Source of the DNA: Azospira sp. I13 | GTDB taxonomy: Bacteria > Pseudomonadota > Gammaproteobacteria > Burkholderiales > Rhodocyclaceae | Assembly: GCF_003112695.1 (NCBI RefSeq) | Contig: NZ_BFBP01000013.1 | Location: 172,180 to 236,179 of the forward strand | Direction: 5' to 3' | DNA: 64,000 bases | Shown: in pieces, positions 4,059-61,704 of the stretch | How positions within the stretch are numbered: the first letter of the stretch is position 1 | Layout of the letters: each line of letters opens with the position of its first letter | Notes under the pieces: model-generated | Database searches by the model: none | Seen by the model: only the letters and a program-made list of their open reading frames with translations | What the model was told of the DNA's origin: nothing | Translations under genes and position numbers: made by a program

Positions 4059-5249
4059 ATGTTCAAACTGTTCGCAACCTGTCCCCGGGGTCTGGAAGCC
4101 CTGCTGGCGGAAGACCTGGCCGCTGCCGGCGCCAGCGACATCCGCATCGTCGCCAGCGGCGTGGCCTGCAAGGGCGGCTGGGAAACCATCTACCGCACCA
4201 ATCTCAACTCCCGTATCGCCACCCGGCTGATGATGCAGCTCTCCTTCGGCAAGTATCAGAAGGAAGAAGATATCTACAAGCAGGCCCGGCGTATCGACTG
4301 GCCCCGCCACTTCGACGTGGCCCGCACCATCCGGGTGTACGTTACCGCCATCAAGTCGCCCCTGAAGAGCCTGGAATTCATCACCCTGCGCATCAAGGAC
4401 GCGGTCTGCGATGTCTTCCGCGATCACTGCGACGAACGCCCCAGCGTCGATACCCGGGAGCCGGATGTACGCATCCACGCCTTCCTCACCGCCGAAGATT
4501 GCACCTTGTATCTGGATACCACCGGTGCGCCCCTTTACCAGCGGGGCTATCGCCAGAAGACGGTGGATGCGCCGCTGAAGGAAAACCTGGCCGCCGGCAT
4601 TCTGCGCCTGGCCGGTTGGCAGCCCGGCACCGTGCTGCTGGACCCCATGTGCGGCAGCGGCACCTTCCTCCTCGAAGCGGCCCAGCAGGTCTATAACATT
4701 GCCCCTGGCGCCCGCCGCAGCTTTGCCTTCGAGAAGCTCAAGGGTTTTGATGCCCAGCAGTGGCAGCGCATGAAGAGCGCAGCCCAGCAGGCCGAGCGCA
4801 AGCCCAGCGGTGCCCCCACCCTGTTCGGCCGGGATGCCTCCCCCAGCGCCTACCGGGCGGCCCTGGCCAACCTGGACCGGGCCGGCCTGTTGCCGGCGGT
4901 GGACCTGGCCCAGGGCGACATCCTGGAAGCAGCCCCCCCGGCAACGCCGGGCCTGATGGTCTGCAATCCGCCCTATGGCGAACGCCTGGAAGAGCTGGAT
5001 GACCTGCTGCTCTTCTACCCCAAGCTGGGCGCCGCCCTGAAACAGAAGTACGCCGGCTGGACCTGTTATTTCCTCACCGCCGACCCGGCCATGCAGAAGG
5101 GCATCGGCCTCAAGCCGAGCAAGAAAACGCCCCTCTTCAACGGTGCCCTGGAGTGCCGCCTTTTCGAAATCAAGATGGTGGCCGGTTTCAACCGGCGGAA
5201 GAAGCCGGGTGAGGGTGACGGAGCGGCTGAAGAAGCCTCGGAGAAATAG
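4059..5249 (+). CDS. rlmL: THUMP-domain 23S rRNA guanine-N2 methyltransferase (RlmL-type)
   Basis: 396 residues: an N-terminal ferredoxin-like/THUMP RNA-binding region (about 1-160) beginning MFKLFATCPRGLEALL, then a Rossmann methyltransferase domain. The SAM-binding DPMCGSGTFLLEAA (about residue 197) and the N2-guanine motif NPPYGERL (302-309) are both present. This matches the RlmL half of E. coli RlmKL, which methylates G2445 of 23S rRNA; the RlmK half is absent, as is normal outside Gammaproteobacteria. Lies 20 bp after hemJ and is closed by a strong terminator. Confidence 0.85.
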   Translation: MFKLFATCPRGLEALLAEDLAAAGASDIRIVASGVACKGGWETIYRTNLNSRIATRLMMQLSFGKYQKEEDIYKQARRIDWPRHFDVARTIRVYVTAIKSPLKSLEFITLRIKDAVCDVFRDHCDERPSVDTREPDVRIHAFLTAEDCTLYLDTTGAPLYQRGYRQKTVDAPLKENLAAGILRLAGWQPGTVLLDPMCGSGTFLLEAAQQVYNIAPGARRSFAFEKLKGFDAQQWQRMKSAAQQAERKPSGAPTLFGRDASPSAYRAALANLDRAGLLPAVDLAQGDILEAAPPATPGLMVCNPPYGERLEELDDLLLFYPKLGAALKQKYAGWTCYFLTADPAMQKGIGLKPSKKTPLFNGALECRLFEIKMVAGFNRRKKPGEGDGAAEEASEK

Positions 5250-19958: not shown

Positions 19959-21091
<1,133 letters not shown>

Positions 21092-21092
<1 letters not shown>

Positions 21093-21397
21093 TGCGCCGC
21101 CGCTCCCTTGTCGCGCGCTCCCCGCTGGCCCGCTGGCTGGCCCTGCTGCCCCTGTTGCTGGCGGCGGTCTGGCTGCTGCATCTGGCCGGCCACCTGCAGA
21201 CCGGCGACGAGGCCGGGCCGGCGGCTGAATCCTGCCTGGTCTGCCTGCATCTGGCGGGCCAGGGCGCGCCCCTGCCTGCCACGCTCCCGCCCCTGGCCGT
21301 GGTGGCGGCAGACTTCATTCTTGCCATCGCTGGAACGCCCGTCCAGCGCTATTCTCCTACACCCCTGCCGCGCCAGGGCGCCCCGCCTCGCGTTTGA
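21092..21397 (+). CDS. Small membrane protein with CxxCxH motif (DUF2946-like)
   Basis: 101 residues. One N-terminal hydrophobic segment (about 13-32, LALLPLLLAAVWLLHLAGHL) is followed by a short domain with SCLVCLHLAGQG, a Cys-x2-Cys-x-His metal-binding-like motif, and a second weakly hydrophobic stretch with VVAADFILAIA. The layout is like the DUF2946 proteins often found beside metal-uptake receptors, though I cannot confirm the family. The start overlaps the preceding stop (TGATG), so it belongs to the zinc operon. Confidence 0.65.
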
Positions 21398-21437
21398 ACG
21401 CCCCCTGTTGAAAGTCCGCGTCCCTCTTGCCTCTCCG

Positions 21438-21472
21438 GGCAGGTGGGCGCTCCTTTCCGCTTTCCACCTGCC
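21438..21472 (+). promoter_or_regulatory. Leader hairpin before the porin gene
   Basis: GGCAGGTGG (21438-21446) pairs perfectly with CCACCTGCC (21464-21472) around a 17-nt loop, ending 27 bases before the porin start. No U-tract follows. It could tune expression of the barrel relative to upstream genes, or be a processing or stability element. Confidence 0.4.
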
Positions 21473-21499
21473 GTTCACCCGTTATTCCGCGAGGTAAGC

Positions 21500-23008
21500 A
21501 TGACCCGTCTTTCCCTTCACCGGCTGACGCCCCTGGCCGCCGCCCTGGCTCTGGCCGCGGCGCTGGCTCTGGCCGCGGCGCTGCCAGCGGCCCACGCCGC
21601 CCCCGCTTCTGCCGGTACCGATCCCGAGCTGGCCCGGGAACTGAAACAGATGCGCGAGCAGCTGCAGAAAATGCAGAGCGCCTACGAGCAGCGCATCGCC
21701 GCCCTGGAAGGCCGCCTGGCCCAGGCGGAAACCCAGGCCGGCCAGGCCGAGAAGGTGGCTGCCAGCGCCACCGCCCAGGCCAGCGAGGCCCGCCAGACAG
21801 CCGCCCAGCTGCAACAGGCCAGCCTGCGTCCGCCCGGCCAGGCTAGCAGCTTCAACCCGGAAGTCTCCCTCATCCTGCAAGGCCAGATGGCTCGCCTGAA
21901 GGACATCAACGAGCGCAGCATCACCGGCTTCTGGGGCCCTGGCGGCCACGACCACGGCGGCCAAAGTGCCGACAAGCGCGGCTTCTCCCTGGATCACACC
22001 GAGCTGGTGTTCTCCGCCAACATCGATCCCCGCTTCCGCGGCGTGGCCCGCCTGGCCATCATCGACGGCGAGGTGGAGGTGGAGGAGGCCAGTGTGCAGA
22101 CCCTGGGCCTGGATCATGGCCTGGTGGTGAAGGGTGGCCGCTTCCTTTCCGACATCGGCTACAGCAACGTGCAGCATCCCCACGAGTGGGATTTCGCCGA
22201 CGCCTCCCTGATGCAGAAGGTACTGTGGGGCGGCCACGGTTACCGCCAGGATGGCCTGCAGGTGCGCTGGGTGGCGCCTACCGACCTGTTCTTCCAGCTC
22301 GGTGCTGAAGCCGGCCGGGGCGATGCCTTCCCCGGCACTGACCGCAACAAGAACGGCAGCGGTTCCGGCGCCCTCTTCGCCAACCTGGGAGGCGACGTGG
22401 GTAGCTCCCACAGCTGGCGCACCGGACTGTCCTACCTCAACACCCGGGCCAGCAACCGCCAGAGCCACTTCGAGGATGCCGCCGGCCTGGGCGAGGTGCT
22501 GGGCCAGTTCACCGGCCGCAGCCGCACCTGGATCGCTGACTTCGTCTGGAAATGGGCGCCGGAGGGCAACCCCAAGGTGCGCAACTTCAAGTTCCAGAGC
22601 GAACTCTTCCGCCGTACCGAAGACGGTGGCCTGAGCTGCGCCGATGGCGTTACTGCCGCCTGCGCCAACAGCGACAGCAGCGCCTACCGTTCGCGCCAGA
22701 GCGGCGGCTACGCCCAGGCGGTGTACCAGTTCATGCCCCAGTGGCGGGTCGGCTACCGCTACGACTGGCTTTCCAGCGGCCAGATCAGCGTCGATCCGGG
22801 CGCCTATGCCAATTTCGATGCGGGCAATGCTGCCTTCTCCGCCTACCGGCCGAAGAAGCACAGCTTGATGGTGGATTGGTCGTCCTCCGAATATGCGCGC
22901 CTGCGCCTGCAATTCGCCCGGGACCAGTCCATGCAAGGGGTCACCGATAACCAGGTGATTCTGCAGTACATCATGTCGCTAGGCACCCACGGCGCCCACA
23001 AATTCTAG
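21500..23008 (+). CDS. Outer-membrane porin-like beta-barrel, zinc island
   Basis: 502 residues. A signal peptide with an AHA-A type cut near residue 33 is followed by a coiled-coil stretch (about 42-110, LARELKQMREQLQKMQSAYEQ), as in trimeric or periplasm-anchored porins, and then about 380 residues of alternating barrel strands ending in NQVILQYIMSLGTHGAHKF, a typical aromatic C-terminal end. GGHDHGG near residue 155 and several HxH-like spots may touch metal. It is placed between CobW genes and the zinc ABC transporter, so I infer passage of zinc or a zinc complex across the outer membrane; it is not a TonB-dependent receptor. ATG 21500 follows GAGG. Confidence 0.75.
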   Translation: MTRLSLHRLTPLAAALALAAALALAAALPAAHAAPASAGTDPELARELKQMREQLQKMQSAYEQRIAALEGRLAQAETQAGQAEKVAASATAQASEARQTAAQLQQASLRPPGQASSFNPEVSLILQGQMARLKDINERSITGFWGPGGHDHGGQSADKRGFSLDHTELVFSANIDPRFRGVARLAIIDGEVEVEEASVQTLGLDHGLVVKGGRFLSDIGYSNVQHPHEWDFADASLMQKVLWGGHGYRQDGLQVRWVAPTDLFFQLGAEAGRGDAFPGTDRNKNGSGSGALFANLGGDVGSSHSWRTGLSYLNTRASNRQSHFEDAAGLGEVLGQFTGRSRTWIADFVWKWAPEGNPKVRNFKFQSELFRRTEDGGLSCADGVTAACANSDSSAYRSRQSGGYAQAVYQFMPQWRVGYRYDWLSSGQISVDPGAYANFDAGNAAFSAYRPKKHSLMVDWSSSEYARLRLQFARDQSMQGVTDNQVILQYIMSLGTHGAHKF

Positions 23009-23111
23009 AAAACCGGCTGCGCTTGGCGATGCGGCGTTGCTCGGGGCCTTGTGTGCCGGATGCACACGGCGGCCCCTCGCGCCTTGCCTCGCCGGCGCTC
23101 GCTCGGTTTTC
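23008..23111. repeat. Structured intergenic repeat, copy A
   Basis: A 104-base imperfect hairpin. Outer stem GAAAACCG (23008-23015) with CGGTTTTC (23104-23111); middle stem GGGGCC (23043-23048) with GGCCCC (23071-23076); inner stem GTGTGC (23051-23056) with GCACAC (23062-23067) and a CGGAT loop. The core is shared, in the same register, with the copy at 60307-60411, where the stems keep pairing through compensatory changes. It starts at the G of the porin stop codon TAG. Confidence 0.8.
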
Positions 23112-23127
23112 AGGTGATCTGATTTTT

Positions 23128-23154
23128 GCCGGGAATGGGCGAGGCCCTTCCGGC
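23128..23154 (+). promoter_or_regulatory. Hairpin in the leader of the zinc-binding protein gene
   Basis: GCCGG-AA-GGGC and its complement GCCCTTCCGGC form an 11-bp stem with two bulged bases and a GAG loop, preceded by TTTTT. It ends 4 bases before the Shine-Dalgarno box (GAAAGGA, 23159-23165). A role in translation or mRNA stability is possible; the T-run is on the wrong side for a plus-strand terminator. Confidence 0.35.
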
Positions 23155-23171
23155 GTCTGAAAGGAATGTCC

Positions 23172-24065
23172 ATGCAACGACTGCTACTTCTACTGCTCCT
23201 CGCCGCCGCCCTGCCGGCCCAGGCGGCGCTCAACATCCTGGCGACGGTGCCCGAGTGGGGCGCGCTGGCCAAGGAGATCGGCGGGGATCGGGTGACGGTG
23301 TTCACCGCCACCACCGGCCTGCAGGACCCCCACCGCATTGAGGCCAAGCCTTCCCTGATTGCCCGGGCGCGGCGGGCGGATCTGATCATCGCCACCGGCG
23401 TCGAGCTGGAGGTGGGCTGGCTGCCCCTGTTGCAGCGGGAATCCGGCAACAGCCGCATTCAGACCGGCCAGCCGGGCTATTTCGAGGCGGCGGCCCAGGT
23501 GGCGATGCGGGATATTCCGGCGGTGCTGGATCGGGCCCATGGCGACGTACATGCCGGCGGCAATCCCCACATCCAGACCGATCCGCGCAACTTCCTGAAA
23601 ATCGGCGAGGCCTTGGCGGCCCGCCTCGCCCAGCTGGACCCGGCCCAGGCCGGCGCCTACCAGGCCGCCTACCGCAGCTTTGCCGAGCGTTGGCAGGCGG
23701 CCCTGACGCGCTGGCAAAACCGGGCAGCGCCCCTCAAGGGGGTGGCGGTGCTGGTGCAGCACGATGCCTTCCCCTATCTCAATGCCTGGCTGGGGCTGAA
23801 GCAGGTCGGCGTGCTGGAGCCCAAGCCGGGCCAGGAACCCTCCAGCGCCTACCTGAGCGAGATGCTGGCGCGGCAGAAAGCGGTACCGGCCCGCATGGTC
23901 CTGCGGCCTGCCTATCAGTATGATGCCCCCTCCCGCTGGATGGCCGAGCGGGCCGGCATTCCCGCCGTCACCCTGGCCTTCACGGTGGGCGGTACCGCCG
24001 AAGCCGCTGATCTGTTCAGCCTCTTCGACGATACGGTGGAGCGGCTGCTGGCCGCCCTCAAATAA
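23172..24065 (+). CDS. znuA: Zinc/manganese ABC transporter substrate-binding protein (ZnuA-like)
   Basis: 297 residues. Signal peptide MQRLLLLLLLAAALPAQA, then a cluster A-I metal-binding protein: LNILATVPEWGALAKEIGGD, the first metal His in DPHRIEAKPS, a second in GGNPHIQTDPRN, and a C-lobe Asp in AYQYDAPSRW. The His-rich loop of classic ZnuA is missing, so zinc versus manganese cannot be settled from sequence, but the neighbours favour zinc. The Shine-Dalgarno GAAAGGA ends at 23165, directly against an in-frame ATG at 23166 and 6 nt before ATG 23172, which decides the start at 23172. Confidence 0.83.
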   Translation: MQRLLLLLLLAAALPAQAALNILATVPEWGALAKEIGGDRVTVFTATTGLQDPHRIEAKPSLIARARRADLIIATGVELEVGWLPLLQRESGNSRIQTGQPGYFEAAAQVAMRDIPAVLDRAHGDVHAGGNPHIQTDPRNFLKIGEALAARLAQLDPAQAGAYQAAYRSFAERWQAALTRWQNRAAPLKGVAVLVQHDAFPYLNAWLGLKQVGVLEPKPGQEPSSAYLSEMLARQKAVPARMVLRPAYQYDAPSRWMAERAGIPAVTLAFTVGGTAEAADLFSLFDDTVERLLAALK

Positions 24066-24091
24066 GGGATGAACGGCGTGAGGACTTCCCC

Positions 24092-24667
24092 ATGATGCTG
24101 CTGCAAGCGACCGGCCTGGTGGCCGGCTATGGCCGCCCGGTGGTGGGGCCGGTGGATATTGCCCTGCACCGGGGGGAGGTCCTGGGCCTGGCCGGCCCCA
24201 ACGGCGCCGGCAAGAGTACCCTGCTGGCCGCCCTGGCCGGCAGCGTACGCTGCTTTGCCGGCAGCATCCTGCGGGCGCCGGGCGTCGCCCTTTCCTGGCA
24301 GACCCAGCGCCAGCCGGCGGTGGCGGGCATTCCCCTCAACGGCCGGGAACTGCTGGCCCTCACCGGCGCCGCCCCGGCCGGGCTACCGCCCTGGCTGGCC
24401 AGCCGGCTGGAAGAGCGCTTGGACCGCCTCTCCGGCGGCCAGCTGCAGTTCCTCCATCTGTGGGCCTGCCTGCAGGCGCCGGCGGAGGTGATCCTGCTGG
24501 ATGAACCCACCAATAACCTGGACCCGGACGGCGTGGCGGCCCTGGCGGCGGCCATCGCCCAGCGGGCGGCGGCCGGGGCCGGCATCCTGCTGGTCAGCCA
24601 CGACGAGCGTTTCGTCACCGCCACCTGCCAGCGCCAGGTGCTGCTGAAGGGAGCGGCCGAGTCATGA
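24092..24667 (+). CDS. znuC: Metal ABC transporter ATPase (ZnuC-like)
   Basis: 191 residues, short for an ABC ATPase but complete: Walker A GPNGAGKST (about 32-40), signature LSGGQLQFLHLW, Walker B VILLDEPTNNLDPDG and the switch His in LLVSHDERF. Powers import through the permease encoded next. Follows the binding-protein gene by 26 bp and overlaps the permease start by 4 bp (ATGA). Confidence 0.85.
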   Translation: MMLLQATGLVAGYGRPVVGPVDIALHRGEVLGLAGPNGAGKSTLLAALAGSVRCFAGSILRAPGVALSWQTQRQPAVAGIPLNGRELLALTGAAPAGLPPWLASRLEERLDRLSGGQLQFLHLWACLQAPAEVILLDEPTNNLDPDGVAALAAAIAQRAAAGAGILLVSHDERFVTATCQRQVLLKGAAES

Positions 24668-25482
24668 ATGTGGAACTGCTGTTTGACCCCCTCTTTCTCT
24701 GGCCCTGCCTGACGGGGATGGTCTTTGCCCTGCTGCTGCCCCTCTGCGGCGCCTATCTGCGCCTGCGCGGCGAATGGCTGGCCGCCCTGTCCTACGCCCA
24801 GATGGCGGCGGCTGGCGGCCTGGGGGCCATGGCCCTGGGCTGGCCCCTGGCCCTGGGCGGCCCGGCAGCGGCCTTTCTTGCGGCGGGGGTGAAGAACGTC
24901 TTCGAGGAAGCCGCGGAATCGGTGCGCGGCGCCGCCTACGCCATGCTGCTGCTGGCGGGCTGGGGCGTCGCCGTGCTGCTGGCGGCCAACCTGCCCCTGG
25001 CCGAACGGCTGGGCCACGCCCTTTCCGACGGCCAGCTGTATTTCACCGACCAGGGCCACTTCTTCGCCGCCCTCGGCGCCCTGGCCGTGGCCTTGCCAGC
25101 CCTGGCAGGGCTTTCCCGGCCCCTGCTGCTGTCCCATTTTTATCCGGATTTCTACCGTGCCCGGGGGCGCTCCGCCCGCCGCCTGCATCTGGCCTTCGAT
25201 TTGCTGGTGGCCGGCGTGCTGGCCCTGGCCACCACCGGCATCGGCGTCATGGCGGCCTTTGCCCTGGTCTTCATCCCGCCCCTGGCGGCCGCTCCCTGGG
25301 CCGGCAGCTGGCGTCGCGCCCTGGTGCTGGGTGGCGGACTGGGCGTCTTCGCCCATCTGCTGGCCTTTGCCCTGGCCCTGGTCCTGGATCAGCCCTACGG
25401 GCCGGTCCTGGCCCTGCTGCTGGTTGCCCTGGGGGCGGGCAGCGCCCTGTTGGCCCAGGGCCACTCCCGGATTGCGAAATGA
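24664..25482 (+). CDS. znuB: Metal ABC transporter permease (ZnuB-like)
   Basis: 272 residues with about eight hydrophobic helices of the ABC-3 family: the early CGAYLRLRGEWLAALSYAQMAAAGG segment and the late TTGIGVMAAFALVFIPPLAAAPWAGSW match the family. Forms the inner-membrane channel with the ZnuC-like ATPase. Last gene of the island; the downstream gene has its own gap of 88 bp and is unrelated. Confidence 0.83.
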   Translation: MNVELLFDPLFLWPCLTGMVFALLLPLCGAYLRLRGEWLAALSYAQMAAAGGLGAMALGWPLALGGPAAAFLAAGVKNVFEEAAESVRGAAYAMLLLAGWGVAVLLAANLPLAERLGHALSDGQLYFTDQGHFFAALGALAVALPALAGLSRPLLLSHFYPDFYRARGRSARRLHLAFDLLVAGVLALATTGIGVMAAFALVFIPPLAAAPWAGSWRRALVLGGGLGVFAHLLAFALALVLDQPYGPVLALLLVALGAGSALLAQGHSRIAK

Positions 25483-43203: not shown

Positions 43204-43280
43204 TGGGGAGTCGCCAAGTTGGTTAAGGCACCGGATTTTGATTCCGGCATGCGAAGGTTCGAATCCTTCCTCCCCAGCCA
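43204..43280 (+). tRNA. tRNA-Gln (TTG)
   Basis: A 77-nt cloverleaf with CCA encoded. Acceptor arms TGGGGAG (43204-43210) and CTCCCCA (43270-43276); anticodon stem CCGGA/TCCGG encloses loop TTTTGAT, so the anticodon is TTG (Gln, CAA codons); the T arm has GGTTCGAATCC. It lies between ispE and prs, as in many Proteobacteria. Confidence 0.97.
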
Positions 43281-59467: not shown

Positions 59468-60310
59468 ATGCCAATGAACACGACGACCCAAGCCAGCCCG
59501 GCGGCCACCGACAACTACCTCAGCATCAACAATATCGAGGTCATCTACGACCACGTGATCCTGGTGCTCAAAGGGGTGTCCCTGACCGTTCCCAAGGGCA
59601 AGATCGTGGCCCTGCTGGGCGCCAACGGCGCCGGCAAGAGCACCACCCTGAAAGCCATTTCCAACCTGCTGCATGCCGAGCGGGGCGACGTCACCAAGGG
59701 CAACGTGGAATTCAAGGGTGCCCGGGTTGACCAGCTGACCCCCAACGAACTCGTCAAGCGGGGTGTCATCCAGGTGATGGAAGGCCGCCACTGCTTCGCC
59801 CACCTCTCCATTGAAGAAAACCTGCTCACCGGTGCCTACACCCGGGGAATTTCCCGCAGCGAGCTGAAGCAGAACCTGGAGATGGTCTACCACTACTTCC
59901 CCCGCCTGAAGACGCGCCGGGCCTCCCAGGCCGGCTATACCTCCGGCGGCGAGCAGCAGATGTGCGCCATCGGCCGGGCCCTCATGGCCAAGCCGGAAAT
60001 GATCCTGCTGGATGAGCCCTCCATGGGCCTGGCGCCCCAGATCGTCGAGGAAATTTTCGAGATCGTGAAGGACCTGAACAGCAAGGAAAACGTCAGCTTC
60101 CTCCTGGCCGAGCAGAACACCATGGTGGCCCTGCGCTACGCCGACCTGGGCTACATCCTGGAGAACGGCCGGGTAGTGATGGAAGGCGACGCCAAGGAGC
60201 TGGCTTCGAACGAGGACGTGAAGGAGTTCTACCTGGGGCTGTCGTCGGCGGGGCGCAAGAGCTTCAAGGATGTAAAGCACTACCGCCGCCGCAAACGCTG
60301 GCTCTCGTAG
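59468..60310 (+). CDS. livF: Branched-chain-type ABC transporter ATPase LivF
   Basis: 280 residues. Walker A GANGAGKSTTLKAI, Q-loop QVMEGRHCFAHLSIEENL, signature SGGEQQMCAIGRAL, Walker B MILLDEPSMGLAP and switch LAEQNTMVAL. The Arg-rich tail KHYRRRKRW is usual for this group. ATG 59468 follows GAAGGGAAAG; ATG 59474 is also possible. Its TAG stop is the first part of the structured repeat B. Confidence 0.92.
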   Translation: MPMNTTTQASPAATDNYLSINNIEVIYDHVILVLKGVSLTVPKGKIVALLGANGAGKSTTLKAISNLLHAERGDVTKGNVEFKGARVDQLTPNELVKRGVIQVMEGRHCFAHLSIEENLLTGAYTRGISRSELKQNLEMVYHYFPRLKTRRASQAGYTSGGEQQMCAIGRALMAKPEMILLDEPSMGLAPQIVEEIFEIVKDLNSKENVSFLLAEQNTMVALRYADLGYILENGRVVMEGDAKELASNEDVKEFYLGLSSAGRKSFKDVKHYRRRKRWLS

Positions 60311-60411
60311 GCAAAAGGGCACGCCGCCAGGCGGCGTTGTTCGCCGGCTTGTGGGCAGGAGCCCACGGCGCCGGCTCCCGCCTTGCCTGACGGCGCTACT
60401 TTTTTGCCTAC
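60307..60411. repeat. Structured intergenic repeat, copy B
   Basis: A 105-base hairpin collinear with copy A at 23008-23111. Outer stem GTAGGCAAAA (60307-60316) with TTTTGCCTAC (60402-60411); middle stem GCCGGC (60343-60348) with GCCGGC (60370-60375); inner stem GTGGGC (60351-60356) with GCCCAC (60361-60366) and an AGGA loop. Shares GGCGTTG, CTTGTG, CACGGCG and GCCTTGCCT with copy A. It includes the livF stop codon and separates livF from the PaaK-like ligase. Confidence 0.8.
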
Positions 60412-60471: not shown

Positions 60472-61704
60472 ATGAAATACTACGACTCGCTGGAAACCCG
60501 AGACCCCGAGGAACGGGAGCGCTCATTGCTGGATCGTCTGCCGCGCCAGGTAGGCCATGCCAAGCTGCATTCGCCCTACTTTGCCAAGCTGCTGGCGGAG
60601 ATCAACCCCAATGACGTGCATAACCGGGAAGCCCTGGCGGCCCTGCCGGTGACGCGCAAGAGCGACCTGATCCATCTGCAGCGGGAACAGGCGCCCTTTG
60701 GCGGCATCAATGCCACGCCCCTGTCGGGCCTCAGCCGGGTCTATGCCTCCCCCGGGCCCATCTACGATCCGGAAGGCCGGGGCCAGGACTGGTGGCGTTT
60801 CGCCCGGGCTCTACATGCGGCGGGCTTCCGTTCCGGCGAGTTGATCCACAACACCTTTTCCTATCACTTCACGCCGGCCGGCTTCATGCTTGAGGGTGCT
60901 GCCCACAAGCTGGGCTGCCCGGTCTTTCCCGCCGGCATCGGTCAGACGGAAATGCAGGTGCAGGCCATTGCCGACCTGAGGCCGGCGGCCTATGTGGGCA
61001 CGCCCTCCTTTCTCAAGATCATTCTCGAGAAGGCGGATGAGCAACAGGCCGACGTTTCTTCCCTGTCCAAGGCCCTGGTTTCCGGCGAGGCCTTGCCGCC
61101 CTCCCTGCGCCAGGCCCTCAACGCCCGGGGCATCACCGTCCGCCAGTGCTACGCCACGGCCGACCTCGGCATGATTGCCTACGAAACCGAAGCCCAGGAA
61201 GGCCTGACCCTGGACGAGGACGTGCTGCTGGAGATCGTTCGCCCCGGCACCGGCGACCCGGTGGCGCCCGGGGAAGTGGGGGAGGTGCTGGTCACCACCT
61301 TCAACCTGGATTACCCCCTGATCCGCTTTGCCACCGGTGACCTTTCCGCCGTGCTGCCGGGCATTTCTCCCTGCGGTCGCAGCAATGTGCGTATCAAGGG
61401 CTGGCTGGGGCGGGCCGACCAGACCACCAAGGTCAAGGGCATGTTCGTCCATCCGCACCAGATCGCCCAGGTGCTCAAGCGCCACCCGGAAATCGCGCGG
61501 GCCCGCCTGGTGGTGGACAACGCCACCGGCCAGGACCGCATGACCCTGCACTGCGAAAGCGCCCGTAGCGACGATGTGTTGGGCGATGCCGTGATCGCCA
61601 GCATCCGCGACGTCACCAAGCTGCGGGGTGAAGTCCGTTTCGTCAGTCCCGGGGATCTGCCCAACGACGGCAAGGTCATCGACGACATCCGCAAGTACGA
61701 GTAA
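60472..61704 (+). CDS. Phenylacetate-CoA ligase-like adenylate-forming enzyme
   Basis: 410 residues of the PaaK-like ANL branch. The C-terminal acceptor and hinge motifs are present (RQCYATADLGMIAYE, IRFATGDLSAVL, KGMFVHPHQIAQVL), but the P-loop, usually S-S-G-T-T-G-x-P, reads ASPGPIYDPEGRG (92-104), lacking the Ser/Thr/Gly run. The enzyme may therefore handle ATP in an unusual way or be a distinct ligase family. Located at the end of the Liv operon after repeat B. The substrate is probably an aromatic or short organic acid. Confidence 0.78.
   Translation: MKYYDSLETRDPEERERSLLDRLPRQVGHAKLHSPYFAKLLAEINPNDVHNREALAALPVTRKSDLIHLQREQAPFGGINATPLSGLSRVYASPGPIYDPEGRGQDWWRFARALHAAGFRSGELIHNTFSYHFTPAGFMLEGAAHKLGCPVFPAGIGQTEMQVQAIADLRPAAYVGTPSFLKIILEKADEQQADVSSLSKALVSGEALPPSLRQALNARGITVRQCYATADLGMIAYETEAQEGLTLDEDVLLEIVRPGTGDPVAPGEVGEVLVTTFNLDYPLIRFATGDLSAVLPGISPCGRSNVRIKGWLGRADQTTKVKGMFVHPHQIAQVLKRHPEIARARLVVDNATGQDRMTLHCESARSDDVLGDAVIASIRDVTKLRGEVRFVSPGDLPNDGKVIDDIRKYE

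Follow-up and report, generated by a model that had tools for sequence, protein, structure and literature searches.

Correia elements (CREE, or nemis) affect gene expression in Neisseria and have been described as unique to that genus. They are 104-108 or 153-157 bp long, often lie at TA and are substrates of RNase III, and the available part of the same account assigns the 26-bp Correia repeat only to Neisseria (PMC2649163). A 2016 paper, in its accessible portion, likewise calls the elements unique to Neisseria (PMC5039591), and as of 2007 no transposase match was known, going by an excerpt of a further source (PMC2229807). Repeats of Thiomargarita are given in part of another paper as similar in structure and divergent in sequence (PMC4853749). 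Literature searches for Correia elements outside Neisseria and for the letters of the hairpin core, with most subscription papers outside their coverage, recognised none. The same core is now found in other families and in records of other phyla.

The window analysed here, a stretch of 64,000 nucleotides from Azospira sp. I13, carries two such cores, and the two copies are best read as what they probably are, Correia-type non-autonomous transposons with ends of their own, both old, single-core members of their family. Both lie on the minus strand, taken as the strand of the core CAAGGCG...GCAACGCCG. Copy A (23006-23111, the hairpin itself being 23008-23111 and 104 nt long, with its core at 23026-23092) stands between a porin-like and a znuA-type gene, while copy B (60307-60411, 105 nt, core at 60326-60391) follows livF; both were identified from their fold and from matches to the two covariance models R1 and R2 described below, and copy B also from the occupied site in relatives. 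The two hairpins have a common core and differ in their arms, each still self-complementary. Over the whole element they are 70% identical, and in a comparison of 15 elements most pairs showed 57-75% identity. Folded as plus-strand RNA, copy A reaches -66.6 kcal/mol (z -5.4) and copy B -71.8 kcal/mol (z -6.9), the minus-strand folds have z-scores of -6.1 and -9.4 respectively, and in each of these four cases none of 200 shuffled sequences folded as well as the real copy.

The stems by which the original prediction told the copies apart (middle GGGGCC/GGCCCC versus GCCGGC/GCCGGC, inner GTGTGC/GCACAC versus GTGGGC/GCCCAC, and the outer arms) are all present at the positions it gave them. The middle stem of the window copies is Watson-Crick, in place of the tandem G.A pairs of other cores. 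The arms are GAAAACCG in copy A and TAGGCAAAA in copy B, and no insertion sequence was matched to either. Each copy had also been said to begin at the TAG stop codon of its upstream gene, which is true of the window (TAG at 23006-23008 and 60308-60310) but not in general: relatives have TGA or TAA besides TAG at the orthologous livF site, so the TAG is no part of the element. Searches of the window and seven element-bearing loci gave no Rfam match to the elements above gathering score. The sole Rfam match within the window is a tRNA gene at 43204-43277.

A hairpin core common to Azospira and Neisseria

A counterpart is a 106-bp element of a Neisseria-type genome (L452, at 4669-4774, genome G901), which holds CAAGGCG...GCAACGCCG and has the terminal repeat TATAGTGGATTAA, with GCCGTCTGAA nearby. 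By its terminal repeat and the neisserial uptake-type sequence beside it, it is a Correia element. It is the only element in the stretches fetched from genomes G818, G901 and G608, a loose pattern having hit G818 at 78 places and G901 at 23, and cores with the same inner stretch, AGACAGTAC..GTACGGC, occur in G018, G619 and G660. The model R2, whose 33 source cores come from other bacteria and include no Neisseria or window sequence, gave only three matches below E 0.1 in 222 kb, a search set that took in 15 of the 18 stretches from those three genomes: copy A (54.7 bits, E 1.9e-12), copy B (44.7 bits, E 1.2e-9) and L452 (E 1.8e-4). The model R1, built from copies A and B, misses the Neisseria element.

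Measured against the described elements, the window copies have the characteristic core and hairpin, R2 matching them and L452 alike; at 104 and 105 nt they fall in the 104-108-bp class, and they are likewise imperfect palindromes in intergenic positions. TA bounds copy B on both sides, at 60308-60309 and 60409-60410, which may be a target duplication; copy A has TA on its left end only. Unlike Correia elements, neither copy has the 26-bp terminal repeat at its ends, the arms of both being unlike TATAGTGGATTAA; arms vary by lineage, and the middle stem has another sequence. Because the Correia terminal repeat is absent, we name the copies Correia-type and not Correia elements. The Neisseria Correia element appears to be a branch of this widespread family, for which reason the repeats are not a wholly undescribed family; no Rfam model matched them.

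The pairing of the core was assessed in an alignment of 33 cores chosen by eye for diversity from 117 stretches. In this alignment pairing is possible in 90.6% of the proposed structure's cells (67.7% after shuffling), and the covariation score is 0.532 against 0.136, falling to 0.06-0.11 when partners are slid by 1-3 columns. Columns 7-15 and 61-72, bulges included, were set by the search pattern and carry no evidential weight; the signal comes from free columns, in which the five outer pairs, the pairs 17-60 and 20-57 and the inner stem vary on both sides, and free column 6 is G in 33 of 33. Between varying pairs lie two tandem G.A pairs, 18-59 in 25 and 19-58 in 26 of the 33 cores. The CAAGGCG strand is the better-folding one in 24 of the 33, and such covarying, G.A-containing helices suggest which strand folds. 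We propose, tentatively, that Correia is one branch of a pan-bacterial superfamily defined by its hairpin core and not by its ends, the core consisting of an AA bulge, a CAA bulge and, on the CAAGGCG strand, an internal helix of Watson-Crick pairs alternating with tandem G.A pairs. With the core kept across phyla and the terminal repeats swapped, a shared putative factor needed for spread would recognise the core in folded single-stranded form, as DNA or RNA.

Distribution, borders and terminal repeats

Within its own genome (3.79 Mb in 26 contigs) two patterns and one covariance model found copies A and B only; the covariance search scored 64 of 85 first-look candidates under strict filters, so that a diverged third copy is possible. 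The two copies found lie 37 kb apart, which may be chance. Among 61 related genomes, R1 gave 23 matches at E <=0.01 in 16 (0-3 per genome), two of them the copies of the own genome, and 20 of the 23 contain both a CAAGG-like and a CAACG-like piece; the core read from these matches on the minus strand is CAAGGCG ... hairpin ... GCAACGCCG. An orthologous copy of A occurs in the same genus (L039). The pattern CAAGGCGCG-N22-52-GCAACGCCG was found in 68 of 369 genomes of the class (at most 25 places per genome) and in 57 of 199 of the family (at most 21), counts that include some coding chance matches; its backward control was found in 8 and 12 respectively, with no more than two places per genome. 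A looser core pattern, found in 233 of 399 genomes, takes in many coding chance matches and is of no use as a count. The original prediction of a dispersed repeat family, to be checked by a search for further copies in relatives, is therefore borne out by many such copies in which pairing is largely preserved.

A stricter core pattern run against 84,980 species returned at least 117 stretches. Isolates among the stretches listed are all Pseudomonadota (Ottowia, Variovorax, Massilia, Propionivibrio, Methylocaldum, Pseudomonas and others), while the record labels of the matches listed span about nine phyla, those outside Pseudomonadota being metagenome bins only; breadth beyond Pseudomonadota thus rests on many bins and no isolates. 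Bin labels among these matches include Acidobacteriota, Omnitrophota, Elusimicrobiota, Planctomycetota, Verrucomicrobiota, Myxococcota, Nitrospinota and Longimicrobiales. One Bifidobacterium, one Klebsiella and one Desulfobulbus bin label are doubtful, the last having arms like those of Burkholderiaceae bins. The core as query gave no match at E 0.01 among plasmids and phages. Copy B as query gave 18 plasmid records with an E limit of 10, of which a single one, a Polaromonas plasmid, is a clear match (E 9e-7 over 62% of the query), and the strict core pattern occurs in 5 stretches of the viral collection.

High-copy relatives provide a comparative handle on Correia elements, revealing borders and terminal repeats. 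In four of them (G409, G274, G144 and G486) the elements are compact, with sharp borders and unrelated flanks, and measure about 270 bp in the first three and mostly 165 bp in G486. Nine copies in G409 have common ends and are 85-99% identical to the first over some 270 bp. With R2, a pair of inverted cores is found in each of the nine G409 elements read, in both of those in G274 and in two of nine in G144, with one core in the G486 elements; elements of about 270 bp with room for two inverted cores are those of L099-L107 (G409) and L108-L118. Terminal repeats fall into three types, G409 and G274 being alike and G144 and G486 having their own. In the end analysis, which took 11 of 15 G486 loci, TA stands at both ends of 19 of 31 elements (8/9 in G409, 2/2 in G274, 4/9 in G144 and 5/11 in G486), often inside CTAG, with CTAG proper at 16 left and 23 right ends, out of 27 each; four of the 31 elements have no paired end, and the partner chosen for L099 is a neighbouring repeat. 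The G409 terminal repeat has 106 and 108 matches at no more than three mismatches (214 in total), against none for the control. A compound pattern of terminal repeat and core had no match, though some of the genomes searched hold elements, and was badly built.

These elements resemble IS630 or Tc1/mariner MITEs such as RUP in having terminal repeats at TA/CTAG in high-copy relatives, no noted coding sequence and lengths of about 105-300 bp; IS630 itself is reported to prefer TA in CTAG, going by the title of a work that PMC2170065 cites. Unlike such MITEs, they could be assigned no parent insertion sequence in the genomes tested, and their core is common though terminal repeats differ. A DDE_3 (IS630) transposase match is absent from the own genome and from G409 and was found in only 3 of 10 relatives tested, and neither in the own genome nor in G409 was an IS630 element with the same ends seen. 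An autonomous parent was sought in G409 without success, seven stretches with unpaired repeats running by eye into ordinary-looking genes (30 of the 214 repeat matches were read). The G409 assembly breaks at many of the terminal repeats, and a parent could be concealed at these contig ends.

Turnover and pairing at the livF site

LivF was matched in 89 of 150 genomes of the family, of which 87 loci were read and 86 counted, L354 being cut by a contig end. An intact element stands directly after the livF stop in 21 of the 86, the own genome included; 65 have no intact element there, about five of these showing remnants by eye (L363, L382, L386, L424 and L435). Three genomes (G032, G445 and G532) have a second element in tandem. 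The arms of tandem elements downstream of livF (L357, L359 and L360) differ, and in L435 (G461) a further short palindromic insert appears by eye to interrupt the inner hairpin.

G000 and G002, two species of the same genus, are 93% identical in livF and only 61% in their livF-site elements, with 3 differences in the 60 nt that start some 18 nt past the element; G002 and G445, of another genus, are 90% identical in their elements and 84% in livF. The contrast within the genus, together with the likeness between genera, indicates that an element is exchanged as a whole. The G000/G002 contrast is explained by replacement, or by an old tandem pair from which each species lost a different member, and not by gradual compensation. 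The argument of the original prediction from covariation to selection on folded RNA or DNA is only partly sustained: pairing is largely preserved, but copies A and B belong to a diverse family with different arms and are not two states of one element linked by point compensations, and the element at the livF site differs as a unit between the two species. Covariation between two palindromic repeats need not imply a functional RNA.

Eight same-site comparisons, in which two genomes are used twice, give 329 aligned pairs, with 14 compensated, 5 kept by G-U and 29 broken. Double changes number 18, against about 3 expected if the sides were independent, while of the single changes 25 broke the pair and the same 5 kept it by G-U. 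The orthologue of copy A in G002, 82% identical, has one compensated and seven broken pairs. As compensations stand beside broken pairs, pairing is renewed but not strictly kept, and both selection and template switching fit these data.

A real possibility, though one we hold with some doubt, is that the covariation is mutational, template switching during replication making each palindrome arm a template for its partner and so renewing pairing without function. Such switching is reported, in the accessible part of the source, to create and maintain hairpins and to give multi-base compensations (PMC8794818), and the excess of compensated double changes over G-U intermediates (14 versus 5) is of the kind it would produce. 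Simple arm copying should however erase the tandem G.A mismatches, which persist in 25-26 of 33 cores while adjoining pairs vary; the AA and CAA bulges are also kept in 20 of 23 R1 matches, though the two copies behind R1 already carry them and the 33-core alignment has them fixed by its pattern.

We consider it rather unlikely that the copies are domesticated hairpins in the livF and porin-like transcripts, setting mRNA ends or stability and held by selection on pairing. Arms at the livF site do pair better, on average, with their own partners: the 5' arms form duplexes of mean -32.7 kcal/mol with their own 3' arms versus -23.3 with others, for 10 of the 21 arms the own partner is the best one, and none of 100,000 permutations did as well, with relatedness uncorrected. 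The 18 double changes, 14 of them compensated, also speak for it, and the presence of elements at the livF site in different genera could point to function and not to mere insertion. Against it stand the 25 single changes that break a pair, with only 5 kept by G-U, the 65 of 86 genomes that lack an intact element at the site, and the orientation of elements elsewhere, 19 sense and 20 antisense by a crude ORF caller, which shows no strand bias. That count drew on 131 elements (55 inside called ORFs, 72 classified and 4 without flank), leaving out those near locus ends and the coding chance matches L199, L201, L202 and L212; copies within one genome are not independent.

The proposal that a RAYT/TIRYT tyrosine transposase moves the copies as DNA hairpins of the REP kind is very improbable. 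GTAG/CGTC REP and RAYT/TIRYT elements are likewise short palindromes, often after stop codons and many per genome, but are 20-40 bp long in the part of the account available (PMC3733652), against about 105 bp here, and the window family shows no tag and no link to a tyrosine transposase. The copies are intergenic palindromes beside stop codons, copy B begins with GTAG, and Y1 (IS200-like) matches occur in 11 of 15 genomes tested; there is nevertheless none in the own genome or in G002, and of the 49 Y1 matches that 11 other genomes have, 30 loci were read, in which R2 finds no core within about 1.5 kb and a regular expression gave one coding chance match only. The high-copy elements, moreover, end in TA/CTAG. 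Ordinary intrinsic terminators alike by chance, suggested by the GC-rich stem just after a stop codon, are hardly credible, since a scan of copy A found no terminator-like site around it and both copies match the 33-sequence model with E 1.2e-9 or lower.

Proposed mode of spread and neighbouring genes

On the reading we prefer, Correia-type transposons with their own ends, the family would be a widespread one of small non-autonomous transposons that have the internal hairpin of the Neisseria Correia element. We infer that a transposase of the Tc1/mariner-IS630 type would act on the terminal repeats and insert the elements at TA; lineages would differ in those repeats, so that the core stays while the arms change. 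The window copies would no longer be moving, each sitting between a stop codon and the next gene. Transcribed copies would form a hairpin of about 100 nt that is likely cut by RNase III, by analogy with what is reported for Correia RNAs.

Upstream of copy A the porin-like gene (21500-23008, plus strand, start codon picked by eye) has a weak Sugarporin_N match below the cut-off, and downstream a zinc ABC transporter substrate-binding protein of the ZnuA family is encoded at 23166-24065 on the plus strand (PF01297, E 1.5e-42). Copy B is preceded by a LivF-like ABC transporter ATPase (59468-60310, plus strand; PF00005, the best NCBIfam model being LivF, below its cut-off) and followed by an AMP-binding, PaaK-like CoA ligase (60472-61704, plus strand; PF00501, the best NCBIfam models being those of PaaK, below cut-off). 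By the same analogy the most likely local effect is that of an RNase III-sensitive hairpin between two messages, whose cutting would separate the livF message from that of the CoA ligase, and the porin-like message from that of znuA. Copy A is enclosed by an apparent metal gene cluster (19959-25482) comprising a CobW-like GTPase (by eye), the porin-like gene, the ZnuA-family protein, an ABC ATPase and a membrane protein (by eye).
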